NCBI GenBank assembly: GCA_937929805.1
Contig: CALFUT010000001.1
Coordinates: forward strand, 1-64,000
Source of the DNA: an uncultured Pirellulaceae bacterium
GTDB taxonomy: Bacteria; Planctomycetota; Planctomycetia; Pirellulales; Pirellulaceae
Reading direction: 5' to 3'
DNA: 64,000 nucleotides
Shown here: positions 26,684-38,978 of the stretch, one piece after another
How positions within the stretch are numbered: the first letter of the stretch is position 1
Layout: every line of letters begins with the position of its first letter
Program-made: the position numbers and the translations under genes
The notes under the pieces: generated by a model
What the model was told of the DNA's origin: nothing
The model's database searches: none
Seen by the model: only the letters and a program-made list of their open reading frames with translations

Positions 26684-28435
26684 TCAGGCTCCCAGCTGAA
26701 CCAATTTCGGCTCGACCGATTCAATCGTTGCCTCTTCTTTACCGGTCACGCGACGCCGGGTTTCATCTTCTCCAATGACACGACGATAAAAATCGCCAAG
26801 ACACTCGCCATTGCTTCGATGCTGAGAGTACTTCGTCAGCAGTGGGGTCAAAACATCGATCGCCTCTTCGACTTTCACATCGCCGGCGTACAAATCGGCC
26901 ATCCGATCGCCCGCCAACCGGCCACCAACAAACAAGTGGTAGACGCCAGGGCGACGACCCACGAATGCAATGTCCGCGGTGTATGGTCGCGCACATCCGT
27001 TGGGACATCCCGTCATGCGAACCGTCAACTGAGCATCGTTCAAACCCAATTCGTCGAACTTATTCTCCAGCTCCGTCAGGACACCCGGAGCCGCTCGCTC
27101 GGATTCGGCGACTGCCAAACCACAGGTCGGCATCGCGGGGCAAGCCATCGAGTATCGTCTCACGTTGGAAATCTCTTCCACCAACGCAATACCGTGATCT
27201 TTGAGAATCGCTTCCAACTGAGGAATCTGTGATTCATCAAGCCCGTCAAAGATCAGACTTTGCTGCGCAGTTAGCACGACATCGCAATTCAACTCATTGA
27301 CGATCTTCAAAAACGCTGTTCGCATTTTCATCTTGTCGTTGTCGACAATCCGACCGTTCTCCACGAACACGCCGTAGAAAAATTTCCCGTCGCCGCGCGG
27401 ATGAGCCCCCATCCAGTCGTCGTTGGAGACCTTTGGGATTTCTCGCCATGGTTGGACATCGAAATCGGCCCGAGACTTGAACTCTTCGACAAATTTGTCG
27501 ACTCCCATTTTGTCGATCAAATACTTCAGCCTCGCTTGCTTGCGATCCGAGCGATTGCCAAAGTCACGGTAGATCGAAGCAATGACTCGCACGGCTGCAA
27601 CGCCGTCCTTGATCGCCACGAACCCAATCTTGTCGGCAATTTGAGCAAACGTGTTGGCTCGTCCGTGGCTCATGCCTAGCCCGCCGCCAGCCAGCACGTT
27701 CCAACCAGCCAGCTTGCTTGGATCGTCCGCATCGAGGACGCCGATCAGGCCAGCGTCGTACGAGTAAACATCGATCTGGTTGTCGCCCTGCAACGTGACG
27801 CCAACTTTGTACTTGCGCGGCAGGTAAGTCTCTCCGTAGAAAGGCTCGTCTTCTCGAGTCGAAACCTTTCGCTCGCCGTCGACCCATAACTCGTAGTAAG
27901 CCTTCGTCGCCGGTCGGAGATCGACCGCAATGTCGTTGGCCGTCTGTCGAATCGTTTTGTGGACTTCGTCTTGGATTGGAGCCGCCGTCGCCATCACGTT
28001 ACGGCAAACATCACCGCAGGCCGCCAACGTGGTCATCATCGCGGCATTGATCTGCCGCATCGTTTCACGAAGTTCGCCCTTCAGGATTCCGTGGTACTGA
28101 ATCGCTTGCCGAGTCGTGATGCGGATACTACCGTTGGCAAAGTCATCTGCCATCCGGTCAAGATCTCGATACTGCGCGGGAGTGACCATTCCACCGGGCA
28201 ACGCGATACGAATCATGTAACTGTACGCCTTGCCCAATCCTTCCTTGCGTCGCTCGGCACGCAAGTCGCGATCATCCTGCTCGTAGGTTCCGTGGAACTT
28301 CAGCAGCTGCATGTCGTCGTGTTCAAAGTGATCGATCGAGGGATCTTTGAGCACTTCGTCGATGGTGCCTCGCAGCAAGTTACTCTTTTCCTTGGCAACT
28401 TCTACTTTCGATGGGCCTGTTTTATCTTTTGCCAT
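26684..28435 (-). CDS. cysI: Assimilatory sulfite reductase hemoprotein
   Basis: A 583-aa enzyme reducing sulfite to sulfide. Two nitrite/sulfite reductase half-domains are present. The siroheme-[4Fe-4S] ligands appear as SMACPAMPTCGLA and TGCPNGCARPY, where the C-x5-C and C-x3-C spacing and PNGCARP wording are characteristic of sulfite reductase. The N-terminal RITTRQAIQYHG segment also fits. It starts at ATG 28435. No cysJ flavoprotein lies next to it; the Fe-S flavoprotein at 6619-8202 or ferredoxin could be the donor. Downstream are cbiX and cobA, giving a siroheme-sulfite operon. Confidence 0.93.
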   Translation of the reverse strand: MAKDKTGPSKVEVAKEKSNLLRGTIDEVLKDPSIDHFEHDDMQLLKFHGTYEQDDRDLRAERRKEGLGKAYSYMIRIALPGGMVTPAQYRDLDRMADDFANGSIRITTRQAIQYHGILKGELRETMRQINAAMMTTLAACGDVCRNVMATAAPIQDEVHKTIRQTANDIAVDLRPATKAYYELWVDGERKVSTREDEPFYGETYLPRKYKVGVTLQGDNQIDVYSYDAGLIGVLDADDPSKLAGWNVLAGGGLGMSHGRANTFAQIADKIGFVAIKDGVAAVRVIASIYRDFGNRSDRKQARLKYLIDKMGVDKFVEEFKSRADFDVQPWREIPKVSNDDWMGAHPRGDGKFFYGVFVENGRIVDNDKMKMRTAFLKIVNELNCDVVLTAQQSLIFDGLDESQIPQLEAILKDHGIALVEEISNVRRYSMACPAMPTCGLAVAESERAAPGVLTELENKFDELGLNDAQLTVRMTGCPNGCARPYTADIAFVGRRPGVYHLFVGGRLAGDRMADLYAGDVKVEEAIDVLTPLLTKYSQHRSNGECLGDFYRRVIGEDETRRRVTGKEEATIESVEPKLVQLGA

Positions 28436-28541
28436 TTTCTGTTCTTCGTCCAGTTCTTGGATCGTTTTCCTGTTTGTTGGAGCTTCTGATTTTTAGGTTG
28501 TCAAACGGCAGCCACGGTCACTAACCCCGTGACTACATCCG

Positions 28542-29279
28542 CTAAATTTCGTAGTGCAATCCGCATTCGGTTTTCTCGTTGCCTTCCCATCGACCATCGC
28601 GTTTGTCCTGATCAGGAGTCGCACCGGGAACCACCTTCGTGCAATGAGTACAGCCAATGCTGGGATAGTTTTGCAAATGCAATTGGTTGAACGGAACTTC
28701 GTGCTCCTGAACGTACGTCCACACATCGGCACGAGTCCACGTTACAAGTGGACAAAACTTGGTGACTTGGTATCTCCAATCCCACGACACAACCGGCGTC
28801 TGAGAACGATGTTCAGTCTGTGTTCTCCGCAGACCAGTCATCCAAACTTTATAAGGCCTAATATTTTCGACCATCGGCTGCACCTTACGAATGTTGCAGC
28901 ACAGGTCTTTGTTTGATTTCCACAGCTCCGCACCGTACTGCTGTTCTTGCTGTTCGGGCGTCACGCTGGTCTTCCAGATGACAAAATTCAAATTGGTGTA
29001 CTTTGCGATCAACTGGTCTCGCAGCGTCAGAGTCTCCTCGAAGAAGAAATCCGTATCGATGCAGGCGATCGTCAACGGCTCCAGCGATGCCGCTTCGATC
29101 GCCTTGGAGCACATGTCGATTAGGGCACAACCTTCCATGCCGAACGCGGAAGTCAGAACCATCGGAACGTCTGAAAAATACTCCAAGCCCCACTCCACCA
29201 ACTGGAGGGGCGAGCTTTCATCGCTCAAAGCAGTTTGCTTCACGGCGGAAGGTTTCGAATTGGCAGGTTTGGAGTTCAT
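28542..29279 (-). CDS. cysH: Adenylyl-sulfate (APS/PAPS) reductase
   Basis: A 245-aa reductase making sulfite from activated sulfate with thioredoxin. The Cys pair CCNIRKV and the later GCTHCTKVV supply the four ligands of the [4Fe-4S] cluster found in APS-type reductases. The catalytic cysteine is in KTECGLHYE at the C terminus, and the substrate loop SAFGMEGCALIDM is near the start. ATG 29279 was chosen; a GTG 51 bp upstream is also in frame. It lies 106 bp upstream of cysI on the same strand, so the sulfur genes may be one transcription unit. Confidence 0.9.
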   Translation of the reverse strand: MNSKPANSKPSAVKQTALSDESSPLQLVEWGLEYFSDVPMVLTSAFGMEGCALIDMCSKAIEAASLEPLTIACIDTDFFFEETLTLRDQLIAKYTNLNFVIWKTSVTPEQQEQQYGAELWKSNKDLCCNIRKVQPMVENIRPYKVWMTGLRRTQTEHRSQTPVVSWDWRYQVTKFCPLVTWTRADVWTYVQEHEVPFNQLHLQNYPSIGCTHCTKVVPGATPDQDKRDGRWEGNEKTECGLHYEI

Positions 29280-29501
29280 AAAATCAACAAAATGTCCGGT
29301 TCCAGCCTCGTCGCTCAGCCCAAGAAACACTTATTGTAGATAGGCTTCACTTCCCGATCGTCAAGTTTCCCAGTGATTCACCATAGTTTAGCAGCAGTAA
29401 GCCAACCGGCACTACCGACACGTGCAGATTCGTGTGGGTTCGGCGTTTTGACGCAGCCATCTGACACTGTCTGCTGGGGCGTACGATTCCGCAAACACGA
29501 T

Positions 29502-29976: not shown

Positions 29977-30112
29977 GCACTCACTACGCACGGGCGAAAC
30001 CAACATCTTCGCGCAGTTGGTTGCAACGGATCGGCACCGCCGCCAATCGATTCTATTGGAAATTTTGGTTGGTTAGTTAGCAGCACTCAGCAGCACACTG
30101 AACACTGATCAC

Positions 30113-30152
30113 TGAACAAACAAAAGCCCTGAGAGTTTCCTCTCAAGGCTTT
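30113..30152 (-). terminator. Intrinsic terminator after the selenolipoprotein gene
   Basis: On the minus strand AAAGCC-TT-GAGAG, loop GAAA, CTCTC-AG-GGCTTT is followed by a T-rich tract (TTTTGTTTG). It lies about 60 bp after the stop codon at 30210. Confidence 0.75.
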
Positions 30153-30209
30153 CGTTCTAAAAATCTGTACTGCCGTCTGAAGTCTGAAGCTTGAAGCCTC
30201 ACACCTGAG

Positions 30210-30734
30210 TCACTCGGCTGGCGCTTCCAGCGAAACATCGAAGTCACCGCCAGCAGGCGCTGAAGCTTCACCGGCACCTGCCCCGTCGGCTTCACCAAAA
30301 GTTGGTGCTCCCGGTGGCAGCGGCGGAGCGAAATCGTTCGACGTATCGCTTGTTTGACTGGTTTCTTCAGCAACCGTATCTACGCTGCTGGATTCCACTG
30401 TTAACGTGAATCGTGATTCGCCAGAAGCCTTCGCGTCCGCAAACGCGCTGACTAATTGACTTGGATCCGTTTTGGCTGGATCGTAAAAGGCCGTCGCAGT
30501 TTGATCGGCCATACTCGTTGAGACTTTCGCTACACCCGGCAGCGATGAAAGCTGTCTTTCGACAGCCCCCGTTCAGGACGCGCCTCAGACCATCCCCGAA
30601 ACAGAGAACACGACCGACTCCATTCCATCCGGGACATCCATCGAGGCAGAACCTCCTGACTCAGAGCTGCAGCCAAAGGCAATGATCAGCATCATCGCCA
30701 ACAGGCCGCTACTGAGCGTTAACAATTGTTTCAT
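30210..30734 (-). CDS. Candidate selenoprotein: HMA-domain lipoprotein with two in-frame TGA codons
   Basis: From the ATG at 30734 one frame runs 174 codons to a stop at 30212-30210, interrupted only by TGA at codons 50 and 54 (30587-30585 and 30575-30573). Residues 1-22 are a lipoprotein signal (MKQLL...LIIAFGC, Cys22). Residues 40-105 are a heavy-metal-associated domain: SVSGMV-U-GAS-U-TGAVERQLSSLPGVAKV, where GM-x-C and C-x3-VE of the normal metal loop fall exactly on the two TGA codons. A Pro/Gly/Ala-rich tail ends the protein. A hairpin with a GAAA loop follows the second TGA. I read both TGA as selenocysteine. Frame and domain are seen directly; selenocysteine insertion is inference. 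Confidence 0.7.
30547..30570 (-). promoter_or_regulatory. Candidate bacterial SECIS hairpin
   Basis: On the minus strand GGGGGCTGTC, loop GAAA, GACAGCTTTC: ten pairs including three G-U, starting two bases after the second TGA. The loop begins with G and lies 12-15 nt after the second TGA and about 25 nt after the first, within or close to the range reported for bacterial SECIS elements. It is in the coding frame (residues 56-63), as bacterial SECIS elements are. Confidence 0.55.
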
Positions 30735-31052
30735 CGGTATTCCCAATCCTTATTCGCGTTGTACGTTTGTGAGTCGGGCAGAATTTCGACGTGAAAAACA
30801 ACGATATTTCTCACCGAGCTACCAAAGCATTGTCGTCGTGTTGACTCGTGCCACGCCTGTTAAATCCTAGCCAACCGCACTCAAAAGGCAAAGACTAGCC
30901 AGCGAAATCGAGTCTTTTCGCACGACCCACAGTTTTTGACACAAGATTTGAGCGCCAGCATCGACTAGACCACCCATGCACCTCCTCAATCGGAAGGGAA
31001 CGAGCGAGGTGTTTTGCGCGTTCAGCTAAAAATGGGTTAGACTGGGCAGAGC
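30735..31052. other. Intergenic between divergent genes, nothing recognised
   Basis: This stretch must hold the promoters of the selenolipoprotein gene (minus) and of the ABC operon (plus), but I see no convincing -35/-10 or -24/-12 element and no strong hairpin. Confidence 0.4.
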
Positions 31053-31406
31053 GTGGAAAAGAATGGTCCAAGACAGCCGTGCGAACGGTGTCGTTCAAGA
31101 AAACGATCAGGAATTCAATCCTTGAAGTATTCCATCAAACAATTGTTGTTGGTCACCATCCCGATCGGAATATACTTCGCATGTGTCGCAAGTGCTTTCC
31201 GTGGCAGCTCGGTTGGGAAGGGACTGGCGTTTGCAGTTCCCGCGATCGCGATCTGGTTCTTGGCGATGGCCGCGGTCTACTGGTTTGCACTGGCTGCTTC
31301 AAAAATTGGCGGGCGATTCACGGGACGTGGTTCAGCTGCTTCCAAACCAGACATCGGGAAGAGTTCAAAGAGCCCGGGCGCGTCTTCGGTTGAGGTATCG
31401 CCGTGA
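31053..31406 (+). CDS. Small two-segment membrane protein, first gene of ABC operon
   Basis: 117 aa from GTG 31053. A TTG at 31122, with AGGA upstream, would give a 94-aa protein beginning MKYSIKQ and looks equally natural. Two membrane segments (LLLVTIPIGIYFACVASAF; GLAFAVPAIAIWFLAMAAVYWFALAA) are followed by a basic Ser/Lys-rich tail. Its stop overlaps the next gene in GTGA. It is probably an accessory membrane subunit of the exporter encoded downstream. No family was recognised. Confidence 0.65.
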   Translation: MEKNGPRQPCERCRSRKRSGIQSLKYSIKQLLLVTIPIGIYFACVASAFRGSSVGKGLAFAVPAIAIWFLAMAAVYWFALAASKIGGRFTGRGSAASKPDIGKSSKSPGASSVEVSP

Positions 31407-38039: not shown

Positions 38040-38978
38040 CTACTCGCCCAGCGCGCCGCGCACCGATTCAGGCAGAAACGTTTTGGCAGCGCTAGCCCAC
38101 TTGCTTTTAGCGGCCTCCGAAATGGAAAGTCGCAACGACTTCTTCTCCTCCAGCAGTTTCTTGTTGATTTTTTCGACCAGCTTTTGCTCTTTCTGAGCGA
38201 TTTTCTCGTCCAGTGATCCCCGGACACCTTTGCTTACCTGCTGAGCGAACTCGCCGCCAGCTTTGCTGATCCGGTCGATCCGCAATTCTTGGATGTCGAT
38301 ATTGGCGGCCGTCGCTATGGGCTCAAAAATCAAATCGGGTGGAAACTTGGTAATGTCCAAATGCGTTTTCAATTGCATCGACACCGAAAGATTCAACCGA
38401 GCGTGACCGTCCGCGCTCAGACTATACATCTGAACGCCTTTGACCCACTTCGACTGCCGACCGTGCAATTTCACATGAGCTGAACACTCAACGTCAAACG
38501 CCATCGAAGCGTCCGGTCGTTGTCGCATGTTGGTCACGCGAACGGCAAACTCTTCGTCCGGGTTCATCAATGACACCGTGTACCGCTTCCACGTGCCGTG
38601 ATTCACCTTCTTCCAACGACGATGCGTTCGGATTTTTCCGTCCTTGAACTGAACGTCGACTCCGTCCCATCGCTCGGATTGCCGACCCCATTTTTTGTCG
38701 TCAACGTAGTCGTGAGGTAAATTCTCTAAAACCAGATTCGTCAACAACTGATCAAGCCGGACGCTACCATCAACCGGGGTCACTCCATCGGAACGCTGTG
38801 CCCCATCCTGAGCCGTGGCGACAGCCGGAGTCACTTGCATCGCGACAGGAATCGAGATCACCCAGCCAGGAATTGCAAGCAAGCCCTGCACAACCACCAA
38901 CGCGACGGCCCAGTGAATCTGCGCCAAACCAGAGACCCGATCACCGGCCACCCACAAAATGTTCCAACGGAAACCCAA
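38040..38978 (-). CDS. Exported protein of unknown function
   Basis: Up to 312 aa. The only in-frame start is TTG (38978) or later GTG codons, so the N terminus is uncertain. A hydrophobic segment (AVALVVVQGLLAIPGWVISIPVAM) ending near TPAVATAQD is probably a signal peptide or anchor. The rest is soluble: a probable beta-rich region (residues 80-240), then a Lys/Glu-rich helix (EKIAQKEQKLVEKINKKLLEEKK) and a short C-terminal basic end. I recognise no catalytic motif and assign no function. Confidence 0.7.
   Translation of the reverse strand: MGFRWNILWVAGDRVSGLAQIHWAVALVVVQGLLAIPGWVISIPVAMQVTPAVATAQDGAQRSDGVTPVDGSVRLDQLLTNLVLENLPHDYVDDKKWGRQSERWDGVDVQFKDGKIRTHRRWKKVNHGTWKRYTVSLMNPDEEFAVRVTNMRQRPDASMAFDVECSAHVKLHGRQSKWVKGVQMYSLSADGHARLNLSVSMQLKTHLDITKFPPDLIFEPIATAANIDIQELRIDRISKAGGEFAQQVSKGVRGSLDEKIAQKEQKLVEKINKKLLEEKKSLRLSISEAAKSKWASAAKTFLPESVRGALGE

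Follow-up and report, generated by a model that had tools for sequence, protein, structure and literature searches.

The window, that is, the whole stretch of 64,000 nucleotides of Pirellulaceae DNA analysed here, contains a gene of 174 codons that is almost certainly intact despite two in-frame stops, as judged by its sequence and that of its relatives, and whose two internal UGA codons apparently specify selenocysteine (Sec). The product is most likely an envelope-anchored, soft-metal-binding double selenoprotein, as its predicted signal and domain suggest. The joint reading, comprising a working gene, UGA codons read by SelB, a hairpin termed HP2 as the main SECIS element and an exported, lipid-anchored soft-metal binder as the product, is given a probability of roughly 0.9. 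Our results thereby support, in its essentials, a preliminary description of the locus that was made from the DNA letters.

Translation of positions 30734-30210 with TGA read as U yields MKQLLTLSSGLLAMMLIIAFGC...SGMVUGASUTGAVERQLSSLPGV..., a protein of 174 residues with two internal TGA codons (Table 1). The preliminary description had given the coordinates of this frame correctly, leaving the strand unstated, and had read it as a lipoprotein signal joined to a heavy-metal-associated (HMA) domain, which is in line with our analysis. The N-terminus, MKQLLTLSSGLLAMMLIIAFGC, is by eye a putative lipoprotein-type signal, and the signals of the relatives compared by sequence are similar, with ...GC or ...AC endings. 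The C-terminal tail is rich in Ala, Gly and Pro. The structure predicted from an alignment of 15 sequences displays the order strand-helix-strand-strand-helix-strand (E-H-E-E-H-E) in residues 39-116; mean pLDDT lies between 74 and 89 in the blocks that span residues 31-110 and is 64.3 for the whole model, with a pTM of 0.45. Foldseek returned ATP7B as the top PDB match of this model, followed by MerP (1afi) as second-best. The assignment to the HMA family is based on both the PF00403 score, which exceeds the gathering cut-off, and the ferredoxin-like fold of the model.

As proposed before, the TGA codons 50 and 54, embedded in GMV-U-GAS-U-TGAVERQLSSLPGV, coincide with the HMA ligand-cysteine positions, which are occupied by Cys in more distant relatives. 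Two residues usually lie between the ligand cysteines of HMA domains (C-x2-C). Three residues separate U50 and U54, and the window protein thus departs from this spacing by the one residue that had been noted. The earlier argument that two nonsense mutations would hardly coincide with the ligand codons likewise holds: the chance that two random stops among 174 codons hit exactly codons 50 and 54 is 1/15,051 (~7e-5), a value that serves as a yardstick only, because the conservation in 16 of 28 congeners says far more. A long hairpin and a T-rich tail downstream of the gene fit the proposed terminator, whereas a strict pattern scan of positions 30000-31100 returned 0 terminators. The ordinary list of open reading frames contains just a 100-aa fragment of this frame, located after UGA2, which illustrates how double-UGA genes slip past annotation.

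Table 1. Positions of the gene and of its sequence and RNA features in the window.
Feature	Position	Strand	Remarks
Putative double-selenocysteine HMA lipoprotein gene	30210..30734	minus	174 codons plus TGA stop; translated with TGA=U
Putative signal peptide and lipobox ending in Cys22 (IAFGC)	30669..30734	minus	read by eye
HMA domain, residues 42-101	30432..30611	minus	PF00403, 41.3 bits vs cut-off 24.8
UGA1, codon 50, first ligand position	30585..30587	minus	kept in 16/16 full-length genus orthologs
UGA2, codon 54, second ligand position (U-x3-U)	30573..30575	minus	kept in 16/16 full-length genus orthologs
HP1, 10-bp hairpin, loop GAAA	30547..30570	minus	loop 24 nt after UGA1
HP2, 7-bp hairpin, proposed SECIS, loop CGGGU at 30534-30538	30527..30545	minus	over Leu-Pro-Gly-Val codons
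TGA as true stop	30210..30212	minus	15 relatives end TAA/TAG; the corresponding stop of L020 is TAG
Terminator-like hairpin with T-rich tail	30118..30157	minus	65-nt stretch folds at -30.7 kcal/mol

In an initial search, 99 related genomes yielded one full-length ortholog, L020, with 66% identity over 174 residues and the same two TGA codons, besides shorter relatives. Employing a 15-sequence profile, full-length orthologs were found in 16 of the 28 genomes of the genus (74.6 to 171.4 bits). All 16 contain two TGA codons, and a Cys form was not found among them; the spacing is U-x3-U in 11 and U-x2-U (GMTUPGU) in the remaining 5. The wide spacing is common to the 11 genus orthologs and to Cys-containing relatives and is therefore a heritable feature rather than an error. 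In a sample of 199 genomes of the family the profile matched 22 at E<=1e-12. The 10 matches within the genus of the window all have two TGA codons, and the 12 outside it comprise 3 with two, 6 with one and 3 with none.

At the level of the phylum, 213 of 392 genomes gave a match at E<=1e-6, and the matches listed are mostly low-scoring, many of them lying inside long proteins without stops. We inspected 29 loci from this search (L127-L155) and 19 further stretches. By reading, 13 of the 29 loci have a UGA at a ligand position. C-x3-C is present in L130, L142, L146 and L149, U-x3-C in relatives including L127, L131, L136, L139 and L144, and U-x2-C in L129 and L137, so that the ligand states seen overall are C-x3-C, U-x3-C, U-x2-C, U-x2-U and U-x3-U. 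Cysteine in homologs, by which selenoprotein genes are recognised, is thus found in the CxxxC, UxxxC and UxxC relatives. The C-x3-C protein L130 and the U-x3-C proteins L136 and L139 are closely similar exported HMA proteins from three genomes of one genus, which suggests a recent exchange of Cys and Sec at the first ligand. A search of viral contigs with a 50-aa stretch of the relative L021 revealed no relative.

Several further proteins came to light in these searches. The genome of the window encodes a second candidate HMA selenoprotein, L081 (G000:C4, ~80062-80313, plus strand), with the motif GMTUPGGC (U-x3-C) and one Sec. Four other proteins of the genus (L157, L161, L163 and L164) contain GMTUGGC or NMTUGGC (U-x2-C), those of L163 and L164 within open frames 271 and 261 aa long, and in most of the four the predicted fold includes a hairpin shortly after the UGA. 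Moreover, twelve loci (L054, L084 and L166-L175) from eight other families of the phylum encode HMA proteins of the U-x3-U or U-x2-U type, with quite different sequences and the motifs UAVGU, UGVTU, UPMGU, UGTGU, UPDGU, UPVGU, UAGU and ULGU.

Two hairpins follow the UGA codons. The hairpin with the GAAA loop that had been described before (HP1) is real, with 10 pairs and -15.0 kcal/mol. It was first taken as the SECIS element but is probably not the main one, as a second hairpin, HP2 (-8.4 kcal/mol), is better conserved across relatives; the distance to the loop of HP2 is 34 nt from UGA2 and 46 nt from UGA1. In the aligned DNA of the window gene and 14 double-UGA relatives from the first search (15 genes), 99.0% of the HP2 cells are paired and 4 of 7 pairs show double changes, compared with 84.8% of the cells and changes on both sides in 3 of 7 pairs for HP1. 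Together the hairpins are paired in 91.9% of the cells, in slid registers in at most 52.4%. Against 500 shuffles, four of five covariation measures were above all or nearly all; the fifth, further pair types, was unremarkable, as 83 of the 500 shuffles were as high. Since the structure was discovered in the same sequences, the comparison with slid registers is biased in its favour.

The covariation is apparent from HP2 of the window (TCGCTGC-CGGGT-GTAGCGA), L031 (CCGTAC-CGGGT-GTACGG), L040 (CGTTAC-CGGGT-GTAACG) and the paralog L081 of the same genome (GTCTAC-CGGGT-GTAGAC). In 17 of 24 hand-picked and hand-aligned HP2 segments at least 6 of the 7 pairs can form, and in the other 7 no more than 4. 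In contrast, the loop of HP1 varies among relatives (GAAA, GTAC, AGAAAC, AAAAG, CAGG) and its register floats. Protein-preserving shuffles, with codon usage taken from three window ORFs, were performed for 9 representatives: p was below 0.05 for HP2 in 8 and for HP1 in 7 of them (0.0135 and 0.002, respectively, in the window, by synonymous shuffles), and for the whole two-hairpin stretch in only 4. We also searched the genome of the window with ACCGGGTGTA for other genes with the same SECIS loop and obtained two places, whereas the reversed pattern, used as a control, gave 5; the copy in the window itself is GCCGGGTGTA, which does not match the pattern. One of the two places is the paralog L081; the other is a gene that by eye looks rhomboid-like and was rejected as a selenoprotein, since the match lies in an open frame with no sign of a selenoprotein and is thus a chance match.

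According to the accessible text of a 2026 review, bacterial SECIS elements have a loop of 3-9 nt, a stem of 4-16 bp, a G in the first two loop positions, a distance of 16-37 nt from the UGA and an energy of at most -7.5 kcal/mol (PMC13188914). Applying these limits with our own scan rather than with bSECISearch, we found that in the window HP1 conforms for UGA1 and HP2 for UGA2. Conforming hairpins are present for UGA1 in 5 of 14 UxxxU sequences, and for UGA2 likewise in 5 of 14. In the genus relatives both the loop and the spacing of HP2 are suitable, and the limit that it fails is therefore presumably that of energy; in L022 and L026 it folds at -7.0 kcal/mol.

Taken together, these data make HP2 a better SECIS candidate than the variable HP1, as far as sequence comparison goes. 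SelB with Sec-tRNA(UCA) would read both UGA1 and UGA2, and HP2 with its loop CGGGU would be the main element bound by SelB. This reading is based on the near-invariance of the HP2 loop, on the covariation of the stem and on the single-UGA relatives L081, L158 and L162, which keep HP2 46-49 nt from their UGA (46 nt in L081), whereas our scan detected no rule-conforming hairpin for that UGA. HP2 probably serves UGA1 as well, although at 46 nt it lies outside the usual range, because a folded HP1 (24 nt) would cut the path by ~20 nt. With UGA2 in the A site, HP1 would start 2 nt beyond (5 nt if only its inner 7 pairs are considered) and would be unwound by the ribosome. That HP2 decodes both UGA codons, with HP1 as a collapsible, length-adjusting spacer, in the U-x3-U and U-x2-U metal-binding lipoproteins across Planctomycetota is a tentative proposal to which we assign somewhat less than even odds.

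Alternatively, HP1 may be a separate SECIS element for UGA1 and HP2 that for UGA2, one element per codon. The distances and energies of both hairpins in the window lie within the published limits, as this arrangement would require. Moreover, the UGA of the single-Sec relative L136 is followed at a distance of 25 nt by a hairpin with a GGTCT loop, roughly where HP1 lies. The loop of the E. coli fdhF SECIS element is GGUCU. The hairpin of L136 thus favours SECIS elements at the HP1 place in some relatives. However, the loops of HP1 are not conserved and its register floats, and L081, L158 and L162 retain the distant HP2. We therefore regard two tandem elements as possible, yet rather doubtful. 

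Under the preferred reading, the two metal ligands would be the selenocysteines U50 and U54 of an exported, lipid-anchored HMA protein. The affinity of selenolates for Hg(II), Ag(I) and Cu(I) exceeds that of thiolates. The product would most likely bind one of these soft, thiophilic metals on the outer side of the cell membrane, and might act as a metal scavenger or relay. The available part of the 2026 review states that Sec is perhaps a metal ligand in some predicted selenoproteins, whose precise roles need investigation (PMC13188914). A thiol/selenol redox protein with a diselenide switch must be weighed against a metal binder: the U-x3-U pair could form a diselenide, and antioxidant defence is the role of nearly every selenoprotein whose function is known, according to the accessible sections of another review (PMC9312934). 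Domain, motif and fold are, however, those of metal-transfer domains, and we consider a redox function unlikely.

The scanned neighbour genes give no hint to the function. Among the part of the neighbours that was scanned (nine proteins with Pfam, four with NCBIfam), no mer or copper genes were recognised; the nine comprise NadA, SNase, HAD, IDH, a peptidase, an oxidoreductase and three without a match. A protein of 312 aa (38043-38978, minus strand), to which neither Pfam nor NCBIfam gave a match, is encoded nearby and conserved as a neighbour. In 5 of the 8 neighbourhoods fetched (L120, L121, L122, L125 and L126) its relative is encoded directly upstream on the same strand; the gene lies further upstream in L119 and in the window, and no relative was found around L123 and L124. 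In addition, two genes adjoining the selenoprotein gene (26684-29330, minus strand) were read by eye as a putative sulfite reductase and a PAPS reductase, relatives of which are also present at L119/L156.

Among known systems, the best NCBIfam match of the window protein is NF041115 (UxxU_metal_bind), which has two Sec at the ligand positions of a metal-binding domain (PMC13188914, accessible text), as proposed for the window protein, but the score of 45.3 bits stays below the cut-off of 95. NF041115 has U-x2-U, as do five genus relatives, whereas the window protein has U-x3-U, and in 0 of 294 genomes of the phylum was this model matched over its cut-off. The window protein resembles MerP (TIGR02052; PDB 1afi) as a small exported HMA protein, with a score of 31.2 bits versus a cut-off of 92.55. 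MerP differs from it in being soluble with Cys-x2-Cys. Mer genes were not recognised among the scanned neighbours. NF045683 (MerT/CopZ fusion-like heavy metal transport selenoprotein) is a named selenoprotein with an HMA-like end, but it is a 235-position model of a fusion protein, unlike the stand-alone lipoprotein, and the score is 29.5 bits versus 375. The copper chaperone CopZ and the HMA domains of copper ATPases are related in fold and sequence; they differ in that they are cytosolic and have Cys ligands two residues apart.

The claim of a new selenoprotein stands as far as the selenoprotein reading is concerned, but the protein is not wholly new, since double-Sec HMA proteins are already catalogued as NF041115, the UxxU metal-binding selenoprotein. 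The accessible text of the 2026 review lists NF041115 as UxxU with two Sec (PMC13188914); a word search of that text gave 0 occurrences of UxxxU and 0 of HMA. In the available portions of other papers, a putative mercuric reductase with UxxU is listed (PMC9312934), ocean selenoproteins include MerP and a putative mercuric transport protein (PMC2398784), and Sec machinery together with selenoprotein candidates is reported for two planctomycetes (PMC4807772). In the titles and abstract openings covered, mainly of openly accessible papers, we found no description of a U-x3-U HMA lipoprotein, nor of the three-residue spacing, the lipoprotein form, the spread in Pirellulaceae/Planctomycetota or a two-hairpin arrangement for UGA codons 12 nt apart.

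Two in-frame stops would also be expected of a pseudogene, a former Cys-containing HMA lipoprotein gene that two nonsense mutations had inactivated. To compare the window gene with L020, Nei-Gojobori counts were obtained with our own script; the values refer to this single gene pair and are without error bars. After UGA2, pN is 0.239 and pS 0.556, which corresponds to a pN/pS of 0.43 over all codons of this part. By region, pN/pS is 0.22 before UGA1, 0.30 in codons 55-110 and 0.52 in the tail. pS drops to 0.456 in codons 55-110, compared with 0.680 ahead of this part and 0.641 behind it, a pattern that additional constraint on the RNA there would be expected to produce. The two genes differ by no frameshift and by one in-frame gap of 2 codons. 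The sequence beyond the UGA codons is thus under purifying selection, and the gene displays what marks a selenoprotein gene, an in-frame UGA flanked on either side by conserved coding sequence. Orthologs with random residues at the TGA positions or a degraded downstream part had been named as evidence against Sec; instead, both UGA codons are kept in all 16 full-length orthologs and Cys occupies these positions in distant relatives. A pseudogene is therefore very improbable, and a sequencing error was rejected because 16 genomes contain both UGA codons.

The presence of the sel genes had been suggested as a further check. The genome of the window (4.2 Mb in 74 contigs, 95.6% complete) encodes tRNA-Sec (70.1 bits, cut-off 47; reported by ARAGORN as tRNA-SeC with anticodon tca), selB (357 bits, cut-off 242), selA (574, cut-off 268) and selD (267, cut-off 125). 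Hence selA, selB, selC (tRNA-Sec) and selD, by which a selenoprotein-encoding genome is recognised, each exceed the cut-off. Because as many as 14 of 14 control genomes gave matches below the cut-off to these models, only matches over the cut-off were counted; these were obtained for tRNA-Sec, selB, selA and selD, in this order of listing, in 5, 2, 1 and 2 of the 14 controls. Within the genus, tRNA-Sec scores over the cut-off in 24 of 28 genomes, among them all 16 with a full-length ortholog, and with so many congeners positive the co-occurrence of gene and tRNA-Sec discriminates little. The genome of L102, which has a low-scoring double-UGA gene, is 71% complete and without tRNA-Sec over the cut-off. 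The commonest bacterial selenoprotein is formate dehydrogenase. As none of the three matches to molybdopterin oxidoreductases in the window genome has an internal TGA, it is not apparent as a selenoprotein there.

TGA is the terminal stop of 19 of 39 largely non-overlapping ORFs of at least 200 aa in the window; it is not reassigned in this organism and is otherwise an ordinary stop. Although internal TGA codons exist, their reading as Trp, Gly or another residue through reassignment or a near-cognate tRNA can be dismissed as exceedingly improbable in view of this stop usage, the complete Sec machinery and the Cys found at the TGA positions in relatives.

With two UGA codons 12 nt apart and two hairpins, the gene offers a compact natural system for the handling of closely spaced Sec by SelB. 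Moreover, the domain family provides natural C-x3-C, U-x3-C and U-x3-U versions, so that the effect of selenium on the affinity for soft metals is directly measurable.
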